Source: Pseudomonas mandelii
GTDB lineage: Bacteria > Pseudomonadota > Gammaproteobacteria > Pseudomonadales > Pseudomonadaceae
NCBI RefSeq assembly: GCF_900106065.1
Contig: NZ_LT629796.1
Location: 682,001-746,000, forward strand
Length of the DNA: 64,000 bases
Direction: 5' to 3'
Part shown: positions 4,987-34,401 of the stretch, piece by piece
How positions within the stretch are numbered: the first letter of the stretch is position 1
Layout of the letters: every line of letters starts with the position of its first letter
The notes under the pieces: generated by a model
Database searches by the model: none
Told to the model about the DNA's origin: nothing
The model's input: only the letters and a program-made list of their open reading frames with translations
Program-made: the position numbers and the translations under genes

Positions 4987-6177
4987 ATGAGCAAGCGAAT
5001 AGTTATCGTCGGTGGCGGCGTTGGTGGAACCATGCTGGCCAATCAACTGGCCAGCAAGCTGTATCCGGAAATCCTGCGCGGCGAAGTCTCGATTGCACTG
5101 CTGTCCAATTCCCCCGATCACTTCTATAAACCTGCGTTCATGTACGTGGCGTTCAACCTGTTCTTTGAAGAAGAACTCAAGCGCCCGGAACGTTCACTGT
5201 TGCGCCCGGAAATCGAGTTCCATGTCGATGAAGTCGTGCGTTTCGATTTCAACCGACAACACCTGCAAACCCGCAGCGGCAAGCGTTACGGCTATGACTT
5301 TTTAGTCATCGCCACCGGATGTGTGCCGGCCCCGGAACGTATCGAAGGCTTGAAAGAAGCCGGCGATCATTTCTATCAGTTCGCGCCCGCCAGGCAACTG
5401 GCGCAAAAACTGAGCACGATCGAAAAAGGCCGCATCTTCATTACCGTGTCCTTCCCGAAAACACCCAATGTCCCGCATCAATGCGGTATCGCGCCCGTCG
5501 AAACCACATTGATGCTCGATGATTTCTTGCGGCGTCGTGGGGTGAGAGACCAGGTGGAAATCGTCTACACCTACCCGACCACGGCTCAACTACTGCGCAA
5601 CTGCCTGTTCCTGCAACGCCCGACCGGGGAAATTCTGCCGGGTATCTTTGAACGGAAAAATATTCGCTTTCAACGCGGCTTCACGCTCAAACGAGTCGAT
5701 CCGGATAAAAAAGTCGCGTACTCCGAGGAAGGTGACGAGCAACCCTTCGACATTCTGATGGCGACACCACCGATCAGGGCCGTGGACGCTGTGCTCGAGT
5801 CCGGCGCCTCACAAGCGCCCAACGACGAAGGCTGGCTGCCGACCCACCATGAAACGTTGCAGGTCTACGGCCTGGAAAACGTCTACGTCATCGGTGATAC
5901 CGTCGACTTGCCTGTCAGCAAAGCCGGCGGGGCATGCCATAACCAGGCGCCGGTGATCGCCAACAACATCGCTGCCGAAATTCGTCTGGGCACCCCCATC
6001 GCCGTCTACGACGGACGTGTTCAGGCCGTGGCACAAATGGGCCTGGATGCCGGCATGCCGCTTTGGTACGACTACCAGCACGATGTCCGGCCCACCCCGG
6101 CCACCAAGCTCGGCGGGTTGCTCAGAAACGGATTCAACCGTGGACTGTACTGGGCGGTTGCCCGCGCAATGCTTTGA
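4987..6177 (+). CDS. Sulfide:quinone oxidoreductase-like FAD protein
   Basis: A 396-residue two-dinucleotide-fold flavoprotein. The N terminus carries the FAD-binding glycine motif GGGVGG (residues 9-14), and the second ATG motif VIATG is at 107-111. C166 in PHQCGIAP sits where sulfide:quinone oxidoreductases keep an active-site cysteine; C317 in KAGGACHNQ is a candidate partner, and C112 and C206 are extra. The late GDTVDLPVSKAGG is the flavin-contact motif of this family. The C terminus (LLRNGFNRGLYWAVARAML) is amphipathic, fitting membrane association. A strong CAGGAGGTCAGGT ribosome site precedes the ATG. It heads an operon with a DUF1641 protein and a methyltransferase. SQR-type activity (sulfide to sulfane sulfur with quinone) is an inference. 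Confidence 0.8.
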   Translation: MSKRIVIVGGGVGGTMLANQLASKLYPEILRGEVSIALLSNSPDHFYKPAFMYVAFNLFFEEELKRPERSLLRPEIEFHVDEVVRFDFNRQHLQTRSGKRYGYDFLVIATGCVPAPERIEGLKEAGDHFYQFAPARQLAQKLSTIEKGRIFITVSFPKTPNVPHQCGIAPVETTLMLDDFLRRRGVRDQVEIVYTYPTTAQLLRNCLFLQRPTGEILPGIFERKNIRFQRGFTLKRVDPDKKVAYSEEGDEQPFDILMATPPIRAVDAVLESGASQAPNDEGWLPTHHETLQVYGLENVYVIGDTVDLPVSKAGGACHNQAPVIANNIAAEIRLGTPIAVYDGRVQAVAQMGLDAGMPLWYDYQHDVRPTPATKLGGLLRNGFNRGLYWAVARAML

Positions 6178-6204
6178 TCGGCCCGGGGAGAGGAGTAAAT
6201 CGTA

Positions 6205-6570
6205 ATGAGCGTCTCAAATGAATCAATCACCCCCCTCATCAGCCCTGGATCAGACGCGCTGATGGAAAAGCTCAAACCCTTGATTGACGGCGGTCGACTG
6301 GACAACCTGGTGGACCTGCTTTCACTGATCAGCGACCTCGTCGATCTACTGGACCCGGCCATGGTGGAGAAACTGGCGCGGCTGTTCGAAGGCGCGACCG
6401 AGGCAACCTGGAGCGTCAGCAATGCCGTGCGCATGGCAAAAGCCGATAGCACAGCAAACGAGCAGCCCCCTGGCTTTTACCAGCTACTGAAATTATTGCG
6501 CGAACCCGACACGCGAAGAGGGGTGGGGTTTGCACTCAAAACCCTCAACGTCATTGGAAGACAACTTTGA
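6205..6570 (+). CDS. DUF1641 family small helical protein
   Basis: A 121-residue protein of the DUF1641 type. It has a leucine-rich helical core (LDNLVDLLSLISDLVDLLDPAMVEKLARLFEG, given here only as a position: about residues 32-63) and the family-typical C-terminal segment LLREPDTRRGVGFALKTLNV. There is no signal peptide or membrane span. Members commonly lie beside SQR-like flavoproteins, and that is the arrangement here, 27 bases downstream in the same orientation. A partner or assembly role for the flavoprotein is inference. A GGAGAGGAG ribosome site precedes the ATG. Confidence 0.8.
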   Translation: MSVSNESITPLISPGSDALMEKLKPLIDGGRLDNLVDLLSLISDLVDLLDPAMVEKLARLFEGATEATWSVSNAVRMAKADSTANEQPPGFYQLLKLLREPDTRRGVGFALKTLNVIGRQL

Positions 6571-6591
6571 ACGTCCAGAGAGGACAACCTC

Positions 6592-7404
6592 ATGAGCACC
6601 AAACTGCAAAGAGCAAGGACGGCTGACTGGGACGCCACGGCCTACCAGCAATTCTCCCGGCTTCGACAACGACCGGTTAACGAGCTGATCGACCGTGTCG
6701 ACATTAAAAACCCCAGGCGCATCTACGACCTGGGATGTGGCACAGGCATCGCGACGCAGGTTTTGGCCAAACGCTGGCCCCGCGCACACCTGATGGGCAT
6801 CGACAGTTCGGAGCAAATGCTTCAGGAGGCCAGAGGCTTGCCGATCAAGGCGCTGTGGAAGCAGTGCGATCTACAGAACTGGCAGCCGGAGCAACCCGCC
6901 GACCTGCTCTTTGCCGCCGCCGTGCTGCACTTCATCGACGGTCACGAACAGTTGTTGCCGCGTTTGCTCGGTTATCTCAATCCAGGCGGTTGTCTGGCGG
7001 CGCACATGCCCGATTGGCGGGATGCGGTGTGGTATCAGCTGGTGCTCGACACCCTCAACGATGGAGGCTCCGACGGCAAACCGCTCGGCTCCCCGCAAGT
7101 GCGCGAGAGGATGGCGACGCGGACGTTATTGTCGCTGGAAAATTACCACCGATTGCTTGCTCCGATTACCCGGACGCTGGACATCTGGGAAACCGAGCAG
7201 TTGCAGGTCGTGGACGGCAAGTCGCCGATTTATGACTGGATCAAGGTCTCGGCCTTGCGGGCGGTGATGCAAGGCTTGAAGGATGACGAACAGGCGCGGT
7301 TCATTTATCACTTCATGATGCGGGTGCATGCGCATTACCCGCGAGAATACGATGGGCGCACGCTGTTTCCGTTCAAGCGGATCTTCATTGTCGCCACCGT
7401 TTGA
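6592..7404 (+). CDS. Trans-aconitate 2-methyltransferase-like SAM-dependent enzyme
   Basis: A 270-residue class I methyltransferase. The SAM site is plain: motif I YDLGCGTGIATQVL (about residues 44-57), the acidic end of strand 2 in GIDSSEQML, and a later LHFIDGHEQLLPRLLGYLNPGG block. The N-terminal DWDATAYQQFSRLRQRPVNE and the overall plan match Tam, which methylates trans-aconitate in E. coli. The gene starts 21 bases after the DUF1641 gene, so it is the third gene of the SQR-like operon. Why it is joined to a sulfide-type flavoprotein is not clear, so the true substrate may differ. GAGAGGA precedes the ATG. Confidence 0.75.
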   Translation: MSTKLQRARTADWDATAYQQFSRLRQRPVNELIDRVDIKNPRRIYDLGCGTGIATQVLAKRWPRAHLMGIDSSEQMLQEARGLPIKALWKQCDLQNWQPEQPADLLFAAAVLHFIDGHEQLLPRLLGYLNPGGCLAAHMPDWRDAVWYQLVLDTLNDGGSDGKPLGSPQVRERMATRTLLSLENYHRLLAPITRTLDIWETEQLQVVDGKSPIYDWIKVSALRAVMQGLKDDEQARFIYHFMMRVHAHYPREYDGRTLFPFKRIFIVATV

Positions 7405-21730: not shown

Positions 21731-21816
21731 GCCCCCCCATTACCAAATCGCAGGCGAAAAAAAGGGCAACCGAAGTTGCCCAAAATGCCTTGCGTGCTCA
21801 TTACATCCAGAAAGAA

Positions 21817-21930
21817 CTACGGCTTACGCTTATGCGAATCCTTCCAGATAAAAAATCCGAACCCTGCGAAAAACAGAACCATGAGGCCAACTGTCAGCAC
21901 CCCTGCGATCACCACGTTGTCGAAAAACAT
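21817..21930 (-). CDS. ccoM: CcoM-like 37-residue membrane subunit of cbb3 oxidase
   Basis: A short gene of 37 codons. The peptide starts MFFDNVVIAGVLTVGLMVLF, carries one membrane helix (about residues 6-29) and ends in a basic tail IWKDSHKRKP. Length, helix and the FIWKDSxK tail match my memory of CcoM, the single-helix subunit found in the Pseudomonas stutzeri cbb3-type cytochrome c oxidase. AGGAGA lies eight bases before the ATG. An ANR/FNR box sits 66-79 bases upstream, as expected for a low-oxygen oxidase component. It is unlinked to ccoNOQP in this window. Identity is by memory, not alignment. Confidence 0.7.
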   Translation of the reverse strand: MFFDNVVIAGVLTVGLMVLFFAGFGFFIWKDSHKRKP

Positions 21931-21967
21931 GACGGCTCTCCTGCACTTGCCCTGTTGCGATAGGGCT

Positions 21968-21973
21968 AAGTTA
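21968..21973 (-). promoter_or_regulatory. -10 element paired with the ANR box
   Basis: Minus-strand TAACTT lies with its centre about 32 bases downstream of the ANR-box centre, the spacing of a class II FNR-type promoter with activator at -41.5. Confidence 0.5.
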
Positions 21974-31165: not shown

Positions 31166-31366
31166 CATTTAGCCTTCTTTTTGATTAAAGATCGCAGAAT
31201 ATTGGCCGATTCATCATGACTAAGGAAAGGATTCCCCCGAGCGACGCTCAGGCTTAGTCCCTGACGCTTGGGCAAAATACGCGCTAAAAAAGTCGCGAGT
31301 TCCTATTCCGTGAAGGTTCGACGACACCGTGTCGCCGAGCTAACCAGCCCAGGTACATGGCGCCCA

Positions 31367-33562
31367 ATGACCTCTAAAAATAATCCGGCCACTACGGTTT
31401 CCGACCTGACACTGAGCCCCGCGGCGAACAGCCCCTCATCGTCGAAGCCATTGATCCCGTCACGTCCTCTGGCCAGTCAGCAATACCTGTATTTCACCGA
31501 AACCAACACCGACCGCATCCTCGATAACCTCGATGGCCTGCGCGACATGGTGTTCCCGCGCCCACCGCACCTGGAAGGCGACAACGAACAGCACAGCGAT
31601 CAGGAATTCCCGTCGGTGTGCCTGATCGGCCTGGGACGTTGCGGATCGAACATTGCGCTGGACGTCGCGGAGCTGGTGTACAACGCCCGCAAGTTCTACC
31701 TCAACGAATTCAACAACGAAGACCGCCTGTCGCCGGACAAACGTTACGCCGAAAAGGGTTACAGCCCGGCGCAGTGGATTCGCAACAACCTGCGCCTGGG
31801 GCCGAACAAGGCCACCAAACCGGTGTTCCTGGTCGAGCCGCTGGTGATGCTCGGCGACCTGGACAAAGACATCGCCGGTCGCATCCGTTTCTCGCGCAAG
31901 GGCGAAAAGAGTGGCTTCCTGCGCGACTACAGCAAAATGAAGATCATGGACTTGTCGGAAGTCCACGCCGGTGGCGCCGGTAACGCGCCGATCCTCGGTC
32001 AGTACCTGGCCAAGATCATCCTGAACAAGGACACCCAGCGTTTCTCCAGCCCGGACTGGAAAATGATTCACTCGTACCTGATCGACAGCTGCGGGATCAA
32101 GGCCAACCAGTCGCGCCTGTATTTCTCGATCTTCAGTGCCGGCGGCGGTACCGGTTCGGGCATGGCCTCGGAATTCGGCCTGGCCCAGCAACACTCGTAC
32201 ATGAACAAGACGTTCGACACCAAGCCGATGGATGAGCACGACGGCAAGAGCGGTCACTCCTTCGTCTTCGAGCCGATCTTCACCAGCGGCATCTGCGTGC
32301 TGCCGAACATTTCCGATCACCGCAGCGAAATGTCCGAGGCGCTGCACATCAACGCCGGTCGCCTGCTGTGCAAATACCTGTCGGAAGAGTGGGACTTCTC
32401 CTATAACTTCGCCAACGAAGACAGCAGCGAGGCCAGCGTCATGGGCCGGATCCGCCCATGGAACGCCATGATGCTGATCTCCAACGACATCATGCGGTAT
32501 GCCGAAGAAAGCGATGACGGCAACATTCAGAACATCGACGTCAACGCGATGGAAAAGCACGCCAACCAATACATCTCGCAGCAGATTTTCAACATTCTGA
32601 CGGCGCAGGCGGTCACGACTGACTACGACCAGAACTATTTCCGTCGCGCCGGCATCGACATCGGCGAAACCATTCGCCTCGACGCCAACGACCTGTTCAT
32701 GAGCCTGGCCGGCCCGGTGGCGATTGCCTACGCCGAGTCCGTGGTGCCGGAAACCCCGCCGCCGAGCAGCGACAAGTTCAAGGTGTTCGAGAAAGAGCCA
32801 CAGCGTCTGAACATCGACGACCTGTTCTTCCGTTCCATCGACCTGCCGCACTTCAACAAAGTGACCCAGGCGATCGAAGGCATCAGCCTGTTGCCGATCG
32901 AGTCCAAGCGCTATCGGGCCTCGCTGGAGCAGTACAAGAACTCCGGTTATGACGCGGCCGCGTTGCACGACCTGCACTTCTTCAAGAACTGCTCGTCGGT
33001 GGTGTCGATTGTCTCGCTGCCGAAAGACTACAAGCTGTCCTACATGGACTTGAACCGGTTGAAGACCCACCTCAACAGCCTGTTCCCCAACACTACGCTC
33101 AAGCGTTATGCCCTGGTGATCGGCGCTTCGGCCAACTTGTCGCTGACCACCCTGATCGCCAAGAGCCCGTGCCTGTCGGACGATTTCCTGACGCTGATCG
33201 TGGCCTTCATCAAGCGCTGCTTCGCGAAGAACCCGTACCGCTTCGACGACACCCTGGATAACTCGATCCTCGACTTCATCATCAATGAAGACTTCGACGA
33301 AGACCTGATCGACGATCTGCTGAACGAGTTCGAGAACCCGGCGAAGATCCTCGACACCAACTGGTACGCGATCAAACCGATGTACGAGAAGAAGTACCGC
33401 GAGCTGATCAACGACAAGGACAAATTCGTCTCGATCAACGACATTCGCCTGTCGCGCGACTGCGTGAAGAAGGCGATCAAGTACCTGCGTGAGATCTACC
33501 GTCACCGGATTGGCAAGACCAAGGTTATTTCGCTGAATAACCATACCGGTAAAACCTTCTAA
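31367..33562 (+). CDS. FtsZ/tubulin-superfamily-like protein
   Basis: A 731-residue soluble protein. Three elements of an FtsZ/tubulin GTPase are visible in order: a glycine loop CLIGLGRCGSNIALDVAEL (about 85-103), HAGGAGNAPILGQYLAK (about 200-216), resembling the GAGGNPxxG segment of FtsZ, and the tubulin signature FSAGGGTGSGMASEFG (about 256-271). The rest is unlike FtsZ: a Ser/Pro-rich N terminus of about 60 residues and a long C-terminal part with acidic stretches (DEDLIDDLL). The ATG at 31367 is preferred; the frame extends upstream only through a TTG. Codon use is strongly optimised, suggesting good expression. It is single, with no FtsA, MinC or partner gene nearby. It may belong to the bacterial FtsZ-like/Tubulin_2 group tied to membrane remodelling; function here is inference. 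Confidence 0.72.
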   Translation: MTSKNNPATTVSDLTLSPAANSPSSSKPLIPSRPLASQQYLYFTETNTDRILDNLDGLRDMVFPRPPHLEGDNEQHSDQEFPSVCLIGLGRCGSNIALDVAELVYNARKFYLNEFNNEDRLSPDKRYAEKGYSPAQWIRNNLRLGPNKATKPVFLVEPLVMLGDLDKDIAGRIRFSRKGEKSGFLRDYSKMKIMDLSEVHAGGAGNAPILGQYLAKIILNKDTQRFSSPDWKMIHSYLIDSCGIKANQSRLYFSIFSAGGGTGSGMASEFGLAQQHSYMNKTFDTKPMDEHDGKSGHSFVFEPIFTSGICVLPNISDHRSEMSEALHINAGRLLCKYLSEEWDFSYNFANEDSSEASVMGRIRPWNAMMLISNDIMRYAEESDDGNIQNIDVNAMEKHANQYISQQIFNILTAQAVTTDYDQNYFRRAGIDIGETIRLDANDLFMSLAGPVAIAYAESVVPETPPPSSDKFKVFEKEPQRLNIDDLFFRSIDLPHFNKVTQAIEGISLLPIESKRYRASLEQYKNSGYDAAALHDLHFFKNCSSVVSIVSLPKDYKLSYMDLNRLKTHLNSLFPNTTLKRYALVIGASANLSLTTLIAKSPCLSDDFLTLIVAFIKRCFAKNPYRFDDTLDNSILDFIINEDFDEDLIDDLLNEFENPAKILDTNWYAIKPMYEKKYRELINDKDKFVSINDIRLSRDCVKKAIKYLREIYRHRIGKTKVISLNNHTGKTF

Positions 33563-33578: not shown

Positions 33579-33666
33579 ATCGCGAGCAGGCTCGCTCCCA
33601 CAGGGACCGCATTTCTTCTGAAGAAACGCGGTTAACTGTGGGAGCGAGCCTGCTCGCGATGGCGGC
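33579..33666. repeat. REP inverted pair
   Basis: CGCGAGCAGGCTCGCTCCCA and TGTGGGAGCGAGCCTGCTCG face each other just after the FtsZ-like gene; near-perfect copies of the main family. Confidence 0.92.
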
Positions 33667-33860: not shown

Positions 33861-34166
33861 TCAGCTCGTCGCCCTTTCCTGGATCAGAATCCACGGCGAA
33901 ACCACCACAGCCCACAGCTGCGGGTCGCGTTCAAAAAGATCCAGCGCCCGCGTTTCAGACAGCTTGGCGACCTTGTCGGCAGCCAGCCAGGCAGCCACTT
34001 TCTCGCCTTCATCCGTCGCAACAGCTTGGGCAGCAGCGATCAAATCCAGGCCGGGATCGACCCACAATAGGGCACCCTTGGCAAAGAAGGGCTCCAACTC
34101 TTTCCACGTAATAGATGCGGTTTCACCAAGCAGCTTGGCATAGAGGGTGCTAGGTTCTTCATTCAT
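33861..34166 (-). CDS. DUF2288 family protein
   Basis: A 101-residue soluble protein of the DUF2288 type. It begins MNEEPSTLYAKLLGETASIT, and the conserved WKELEPFFAKGALLWVDPGLD and DPQLWAVVVSPWILIQ segments are present. The ATG at 34166 is preferred to a GTG two codons upstream. Function unknown; it is transcribed away from the bra operon. Confidence 0.82.
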   Translation of the reverse strand: MNEEPSTLYAKLLGETASITWKELEPFFAKGALLWVDPGLDLIAAAQAVATDEGEKVAAWLAADKVAKLSETRALDLFERDPQLWAVVVSPWILIQERATS

Positions 34167-34401
34167 GGGCACTGTCCGGAAAAGAAATCGACGCGAATGA
34201 TAACGTCGGTGGTCTGGCAGAAAAACCCGGATGCAATTGAGTCACCGAAAGAAAAGAGCAGGAAAGCCAGGGAATGCTGCTGAATCAAGCAATTAGCCAG
34301 CTAACATCCCGCCGCTATTCTGTCTTTTTCTTTCAATTAAGCGACACCCTCAGGTTTTGCCCCCCGGCGCCAGCTTCCCAGGCTAACAATTGGCGCTCTA
34401 C

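Follow-up and report, generated by a model that had tools for sequence, protein, structure and literature searches.

A probable FtsZl2 locus

The window analyzed here is a stretch of 64,000 nucleotides from Pseudomonas mandelii (contig NZ_LT629796.1, positions 682,001 to 746,000), which carries on its forward strand a gene for an FtsZ/tubulin-like protein, referred to below as FtsZl2 after the family to which it very likely belongs. The gene and the segments of its product are located as follows, in window coordinates:

31367..33562, + strand: FtsZ-like 2 (FtsZl2) gene, translated into 731 residues plus stop
31367..31480, + strand: variable N-terminal tail (residues 1-38), which aligns poorly among 19 relatives
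31625..31651, + strand: loop T1, IGLGRCGSN (residues 87-95), with G88, G90 and C92-A97 invariant in 44 alignment rows
31973..31999, + strand: T3-like loop, GAGNAPILG (residues 203-211), the exact string present in 108 of 125 rows
32141..32161, + strand: tubulin signature loop T4, GGGTGSG (residues 259-265), present in 125 of 125 rows
32474..32491, + strand: candidate loop T6, LISNDI (residues 370-375), with LISNDIMR in 125 of 125 rows
32672..32695, + strand: candidate catalytic loop T7, IRLDANDL (residues 436-443), with RLDANDLFMS in 125 of 125 rows
32762..33559, + strand: C-terminal region (residues 466-731), with no Pfam family over its cut-off

Translation of the open reading frame at 31367-33562 confirms the length of 731 residues given in an initial sequence-only reading of the same DNA. 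Upstream of the assigned start the frame stays open to a TTG at 31268, and the ATG at 31367 coincides with the alignment start for most of the orthologues fetched by tblastn. The same reading had described the C-terminal half as long and acidic, which does not hold for the half as a whole (residues 366-731: 13.9% acidic, 12.3% basic, net charge -6) but does apply to residues 300-470 (net charge -15). Within the C-terminal region (residues 466-731), the best Pfam match is a MIF4G match below its cut-off (E 0.0062), found in 2 of 44 family members. PADLOC returned no match for the protein, and NCBIfam only one at chance level (E 0.088).

Two short elements border the gene. A six-codon frame (31357-31377; ATG GCG CCC AAT GAC CTC TAA) is preceded at a distance of two bases by AGGT; it overlaps the 5' end of FtsZl2 and may couple or tune its translation. 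Among 100 loci, mostly from close relatives, 97 keep the ATG of this frame, and in 85 its stop codon follows within six or eight codons. Just 3' of the gene, a perfect, REP-like 24-base inverted repeat was recognized by eye (33580-33603 and 33636-33659), which could end transcription. The neighbors of FtsZl2 are an oppositely oriented 3-hydroxyisobutyrate-dehydrogenase-like gene on one side and a branched-chain amino-acid transporter operon on the other; a MHYT-GGDEF-EAL gene, the gene of a CxxCxxCC protein, an MFS transporter gene and rapA lie upstream. No operon partner of FtsZl2 was found within the window, in agreement with the sequence-only reading, which had called the gene solitary. Elsewhere in the window, the small RNA PhrS is encoded on the minus strand (21755-21969; Rfam RF01673, 188.6 bits).

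Putative GTP-binding loops and profile comparisons

The three FtsZ/tubulin loops which had been read from the sequence (T1, the T3-like loop and T4) are present at the positions assigned to them and in the right order, and none of 20,000 shuffles of the protein holds all three together; taken singly, the motifs arose in 20, 5 and 0 of the 20,000 shuffles, respectively. The spacing from T1 to T4 amounts to 172 residues. Of the two further candidates, T6 (residues 370-375) falls within the stretch matched by the Pfam family Tubulin_2 (PF13809; residues 240-379, 16.5 bits against a cut-off of 27), and the T7 segment IRLDANDL resembles, by eye, the FtsZ consensus NVDFADV.

When the protein was compared with the Pfam library, the top two matches were Tubulin (E 0.0034) and Tubulin_2 (E 0.0054), both below their curated cut-offs, with MIF4G (E 0.0062) in third place. 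Scanned singly, 43 of 44 family members, the window protein included, matched Tubulin at E <= 0.1 (best 3.1e-5) and 37 of 44 matched Tubulin_2 (best 0.0012), again below the curated cut-offs where these are shown. The best Tubulin stretch corresponds to the GGGTGSG region in eight of ten members (profile positions between 109 and 151) and to the loop-1 region in the other two (profile positions 2-44 or 2-39). Because the T1 and T4 regions align in the register of the Tubulin profile, GGGTGSG lies in the equivalent place. The profile search proposed by the sequence-only reading as a check accordingly returns sub-threshold matches to Tubulin and Tubulin_2 with T1 and T4 in register; matches exist and GGGTGSG occupies the equivalent profile position, the points on which that reading had let its assignment depend.

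Comparisons with FtsZ itself reach less far. With an FtsZ profile, the window protein on its own was matched at E 0.044, and the family members among the matches listed stood at E 2.2 or worse. An hhalign comparison of the family with FtsZ covered the T3-T4 segment only (probability 5%, E 0.0078), and this low-probability alignment sets GAGNAPILG on the GAGxxPxxG segment of FtsZ. Cut-down versions recovered the T3-T4 segment at best, and neither T6 and T7 nor the C-terminal region could be aligned sensibly. Profile alignment of the core (residues 80-620) reached a score of 7.54 against a null mean of 4.56, and 0 of 60 column shuffles scored as high; the alignment comprises only nine columns at GGGTGSG, and the reversed control comes close (6.98). 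For residues 270-620 the score was 5.39, with 1 of 60 shuffles as high, and the alignment is off the expected register (residues 376-381 placed on FtsZ 144-149). Neither the T6-T7 region (140 of 150 column shuffles as high) nor the C-terminal region (78 of 150) aligned to the FtsZ profile better than shuffled columns. An assignment of residues 543-600 to FtsZ strands S8-S10, made by eye, was dropped after the profile test gave it no support.

Both AlphaFold2 models of FtsZl2 are poor (mean pLDDT 46.3 and 49.6); when the second was searched with Foldseek and VIA-align, neither tubulin nor FtsZ chains were among the matches. The single sequence retrieved no PDB chain at E <= 10, and a PDB search with the family profile found ribosomal L23 as its sole candidate (E 0.33 and above). 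The description of the gene product as a solitary FtsZ/tubulin protein is borne out by the signature loops and the profile register; the structure models, both poor and the second without a tubulin or FtsZ chain match, lend the tubulin fold no support. Within the same genome, FtsZ is the sole match to the Tubulin profile at E <= 1, and the window gene is the sole match to the Tubulin_2 profile at E <= 10. The division FtsZ lies 2.8 Mb from the window gene, which confirms the earlier statement that the two are not the same protein.

Distribution, selection and genomic context

Homologues of FtsZl2 were found in 667 protein clusters at E <= 1e-3 among 7995 candidates scored, and searches from two more distant members yielded 647 clusters (E <= 0.01) and 648 clusters (E <= 0.1); scoring was limited in each of these searches to the approximately 8,000 candidates with the most words in common, and 120 of the matches are listed. 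The family is tight, as the lowest identity to the window protein is 58% over residues 39-731 among 296 gathered sequences. Named holders among the matches listed include Pseudomonas, Cellvibrio, Rheinheimera, Arsukibacterium and Alishewanella as well as Marinomonas, Celerinatantimonas, Agarivorans, Corallincola and Thioalkalivibrio. The UniRef label of two relatives (P0206 and P0222) reads “Tubulin-like protein.”

At the genus level, FtsZl2 is present in 27 of 36 genomes, a count to which the own genome belongs; over the whole search the figure is 28 of 57. It is rare in broader samples, which each count the own genome: 23 of 390 genomes in the order sample, 2 of 369 in the class sample and 10 of 398 in the phylum sample, the last comprising one likely chance match and one broken copy. 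The former, in genome G469 (29% identity over 92 residues, E 6.6e-4), was rejected as a relative, its DNA suggesting by eye a chance similarity. The broken copy, in a genome of another family (G787, locus L126), is decayed and scattered in pieces over several frames with stops, and intact copies occur elsewhere. Copies of the order search which had been flagged for internal stops carry these at the gene ends and have intact frames. Collections of plasmids, phages and viral contigs contained no match to FtsZl2.

Both halves of the protein are under strong purifying selection. Across eight orthologue pairs, for which several of the dS values approach saturation, dN/dS ranges from 0.04 to 0.17 in residues 79-465 and likewise from 0.04 to 0.17 in residues 466-731, so that constraint on the C-terminal region equals that on the GTPase part. 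For residues 1-78, higher values of 0.22-0.53 were obtained in seven of the eight pairs, where computable. The codon adaptation of FtsZl2, measured against the ribosomal-protein region, is 0.73 as compared with 0.71 for the FtsZ reading frame and ranks second among the 45 ORFs in the window with a length of at least 150 aa (crude gene calls); this high adaptation agrees with the good expression suggested earlier from codon bias.

The similar codon adaptation, together with membership in the same superfamily, would suit a modulator of the division ring which co-assembles with FtsZ or regulates it in certain growth states. However, FtsZl2 is not near the FtsZ locus and lacks an FtsZ_C match, and 9 of 36 genus genomes do without it. 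Owing to this absence, it does not belong to the core division machinery, and a modulating role is considered very improbable.

The comparison of gene order took in 91 loci of >9 kb, of which the 80 named ones are the best 80 of 565 found and the others have crude ORF picks as neighbor genes. The order seen in the window is kept in nearly all of the 80 named loci, which are close relatives and represent few independent cases. Two genus genomes (L106 and L123) keep the FtsZl2 slot within another gene order, and five others (L105, L107, L108, L124 and L125) hold the gene elsewhere, so that its position varies within the genus. In all nine genus genomes without FtsZl2, braC is still there and no remnant of the gene was detected at the braC locus; rapA lies within 13 kb in six of the nine. 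These comparisons show the rapA-braC slot to be variable and FtsZl2 to be dispensable at the genus level. Of the 80 named Pseudomonas loci, 79 have a 103-residue minus-strand ORF (33861-34172 in the window) next to braC, and this ORF is also found beside braC in the nine genus genomes lacking FtsZl2. At locus L109, a 640-residue ORF (5001-6923, minus strand) lies 83 bases 3' of FtsZl2 on the same strand and has no Pfam or NCBIfam match.

The neighborhood has also suggested that FtsZl2 could be a cytoskeletal element wired to cyclic-di-GMP signaling. GGDEF/EAL genes lie at most two genes from FtsZl2 in 3 of 10 lineage contexts and account for 12 of 98 near ORFs as opposed to 1 of 183 farther ones. 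In Marinomonas, FtsZl2 is adjacent to an ammonium-transporter-PAS-GGDEF-EAL gene, the order of the two being swapped between the same flanks:

L121, 8855-10882 and 5568-8630: Marinomonas-type pair
L185, 8688-10778 and 10970-14023: the pair in swapped order

However, the enrichment was noticed after the fact in contexts grouped by the analyst, 11 of the 12 near GGDEF/EAL ORFs stem from two clades, and 7 of 10 contexts are without such a neighbor. Since three genomes carry 48, 48 and 62 GGDEF matches, chance neighbors are to be expected. Furthermore, the architectures differ (MHYT, ammonium transporter-PAS, PAS-GAF), and the Marinomonas gaps are near 200 bp. The link is regarded as a weak lead, and FtsZl2 as a signaling-wired cytoskeletal element as very improbable.

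Proposed mechanism and relation to known systems

In the reading favored here, with a probability of about 0.6, FtsZl2 is a tubulin-superfamily protein which forms GTP-driven cytoplasmic filaments apart from division. The mechanism combines the sequence facts with established knowledge of the superfamily. FtsZl2 is predicted to bind and hydrolyze GTP and would likely self-assemble head-to-tail in a GTP-dependent manner through the candidate T7 segment RLDAND, as argued from its pattern, whereby each subunit would complete the GTPase site of its neighbor by analogy with FtsZ. The highest hydropathy mean over 19 residues is 1.40, which points to a cytoplasmic location. Given that the protein occurs beside FtsZ and that 9 of 36 genus genomes lack it, its role is most likely a dispensable one in cell organization rather than division.

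Alternatively, FtsZl2 could be a GTP-binding switch or scaffold with a tubulin fold, monomeric or dimeric, whose C-terminal region relays the nucleotide state to a partner without filaments being formed. Such a role would be consistent with the long distance between T1 and T4, with the profile tests, which support the glycine loops alone, and with a C-terminal region conserved like the GTPase part, as a partner-binding surface would be. However, an invariant D-x-x-D segment (125 of 125 rows) fits T7, and in the available text of the 2010 study all characterized members of the superfamily are stated to form filaments, which its authors also expect of FtsZl2 (Makarova and Koonin, 2010; PMC2875224). 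A switch without filaments is considered unlikely.

The filament reading can be extended to a broader picture, held here as tentative and rather doubtful, in which environmental pseudomonads and related gammaproteobacteria would possess a second, chromosomal and FtsZ-independent tubulin cytoskeleton built from one 730-residue protein, its own C-terminal region replacing partners and its state possibly set by c-di-GMP. With FtsZl2, soil pseudomonads that are easily handled in the laboratory carry a tubulin relative which is strongly conserved and resembles FtsZ in codon adaptation, and if it does form filaments, a common genus would have a second cytoskeleton of the tubulin type. The gene is open to direct testing, as it is single, has no operon partner in the window and is naturally missing from some genus genomes.

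Among the known systems, FtsZ shares the T1, T3 and T4 loops in register. In contrast to FtsZ, FtsZl2 is almost twice as long and without an FtsZ_C match, lies away from the FtsZ locus and is missing from part of the genus. Tubulin_2 (PF13809), the family of FtsZl1, provides the longest sub-threshold match (residues 240-379); the score remains below the cut-off, and the ten neighboring ORFs scanned show neither the vWA, kinase and OmpA-type proteins of the FtsZl1 operon nor a GTPase. TubZ and PhuZ of plasmids and phages belong to the same superfamily, whereas the FtsZl2 gene resides on a single contig of 7.0 Mb and has no relative on the plasmids, phages and viral contigs searched.

The sequence-only reading had referred in general terms to FtsZ-like families known from comparative genomics, which can now be made exact, as the gene is, judging from its sequence, very likely a member of FtsZl2 itself. 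This second FtsZ-like family, proteobacterial and defined from sequence, has PFL_1302 of P. fluorescens Pf-5 as its type protein (Makarova and Koonin, 2010; PMC2875224). In that article, the family is described as conserving T1, T4, T6, T7 and helix H7, with insertions separating T1 from T4, without a coiled coil and with a C-terminal region of ~300 aa that has no known relatives; it coexists with FtsZ and has no associated genes. Among the open-licence PMC papers listed by the searches, and in the passages of PMC9871819 consulted, no experiment on FtsZl2 came up. Identity with the type protein is likewise very likely, as drawn from the species and the family description. All named relatives among the matches listed (120 per search) are Proteobacteria, the genome searches having covered one phylum. 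LISNDI and IRLDANDL fit T6 and T7 by pattern and are conserved, though alignment to the FtsZ profile lends them no support. The family is already known, and the present gene is a real, correctly recognized and, as a discovery, ordinary case, to which the tightness of the family, the purifying selection, the presence in the genus, the lack of a mobile-element match and the codon adaptation are added here. Set against the published description in the features compared, no difference was found; the gene agrees with it in its species group, the glycine loops and the long distance from T1 to T4, in a long C-terminal region without known relatives (here residues 466-731), in the presence of FtsZ in its own genome and in the lack of a conserved partner gene, its neighbors varying among the 10 lineage contexts, with the GGDEF/EAL genes as the one weak exception.
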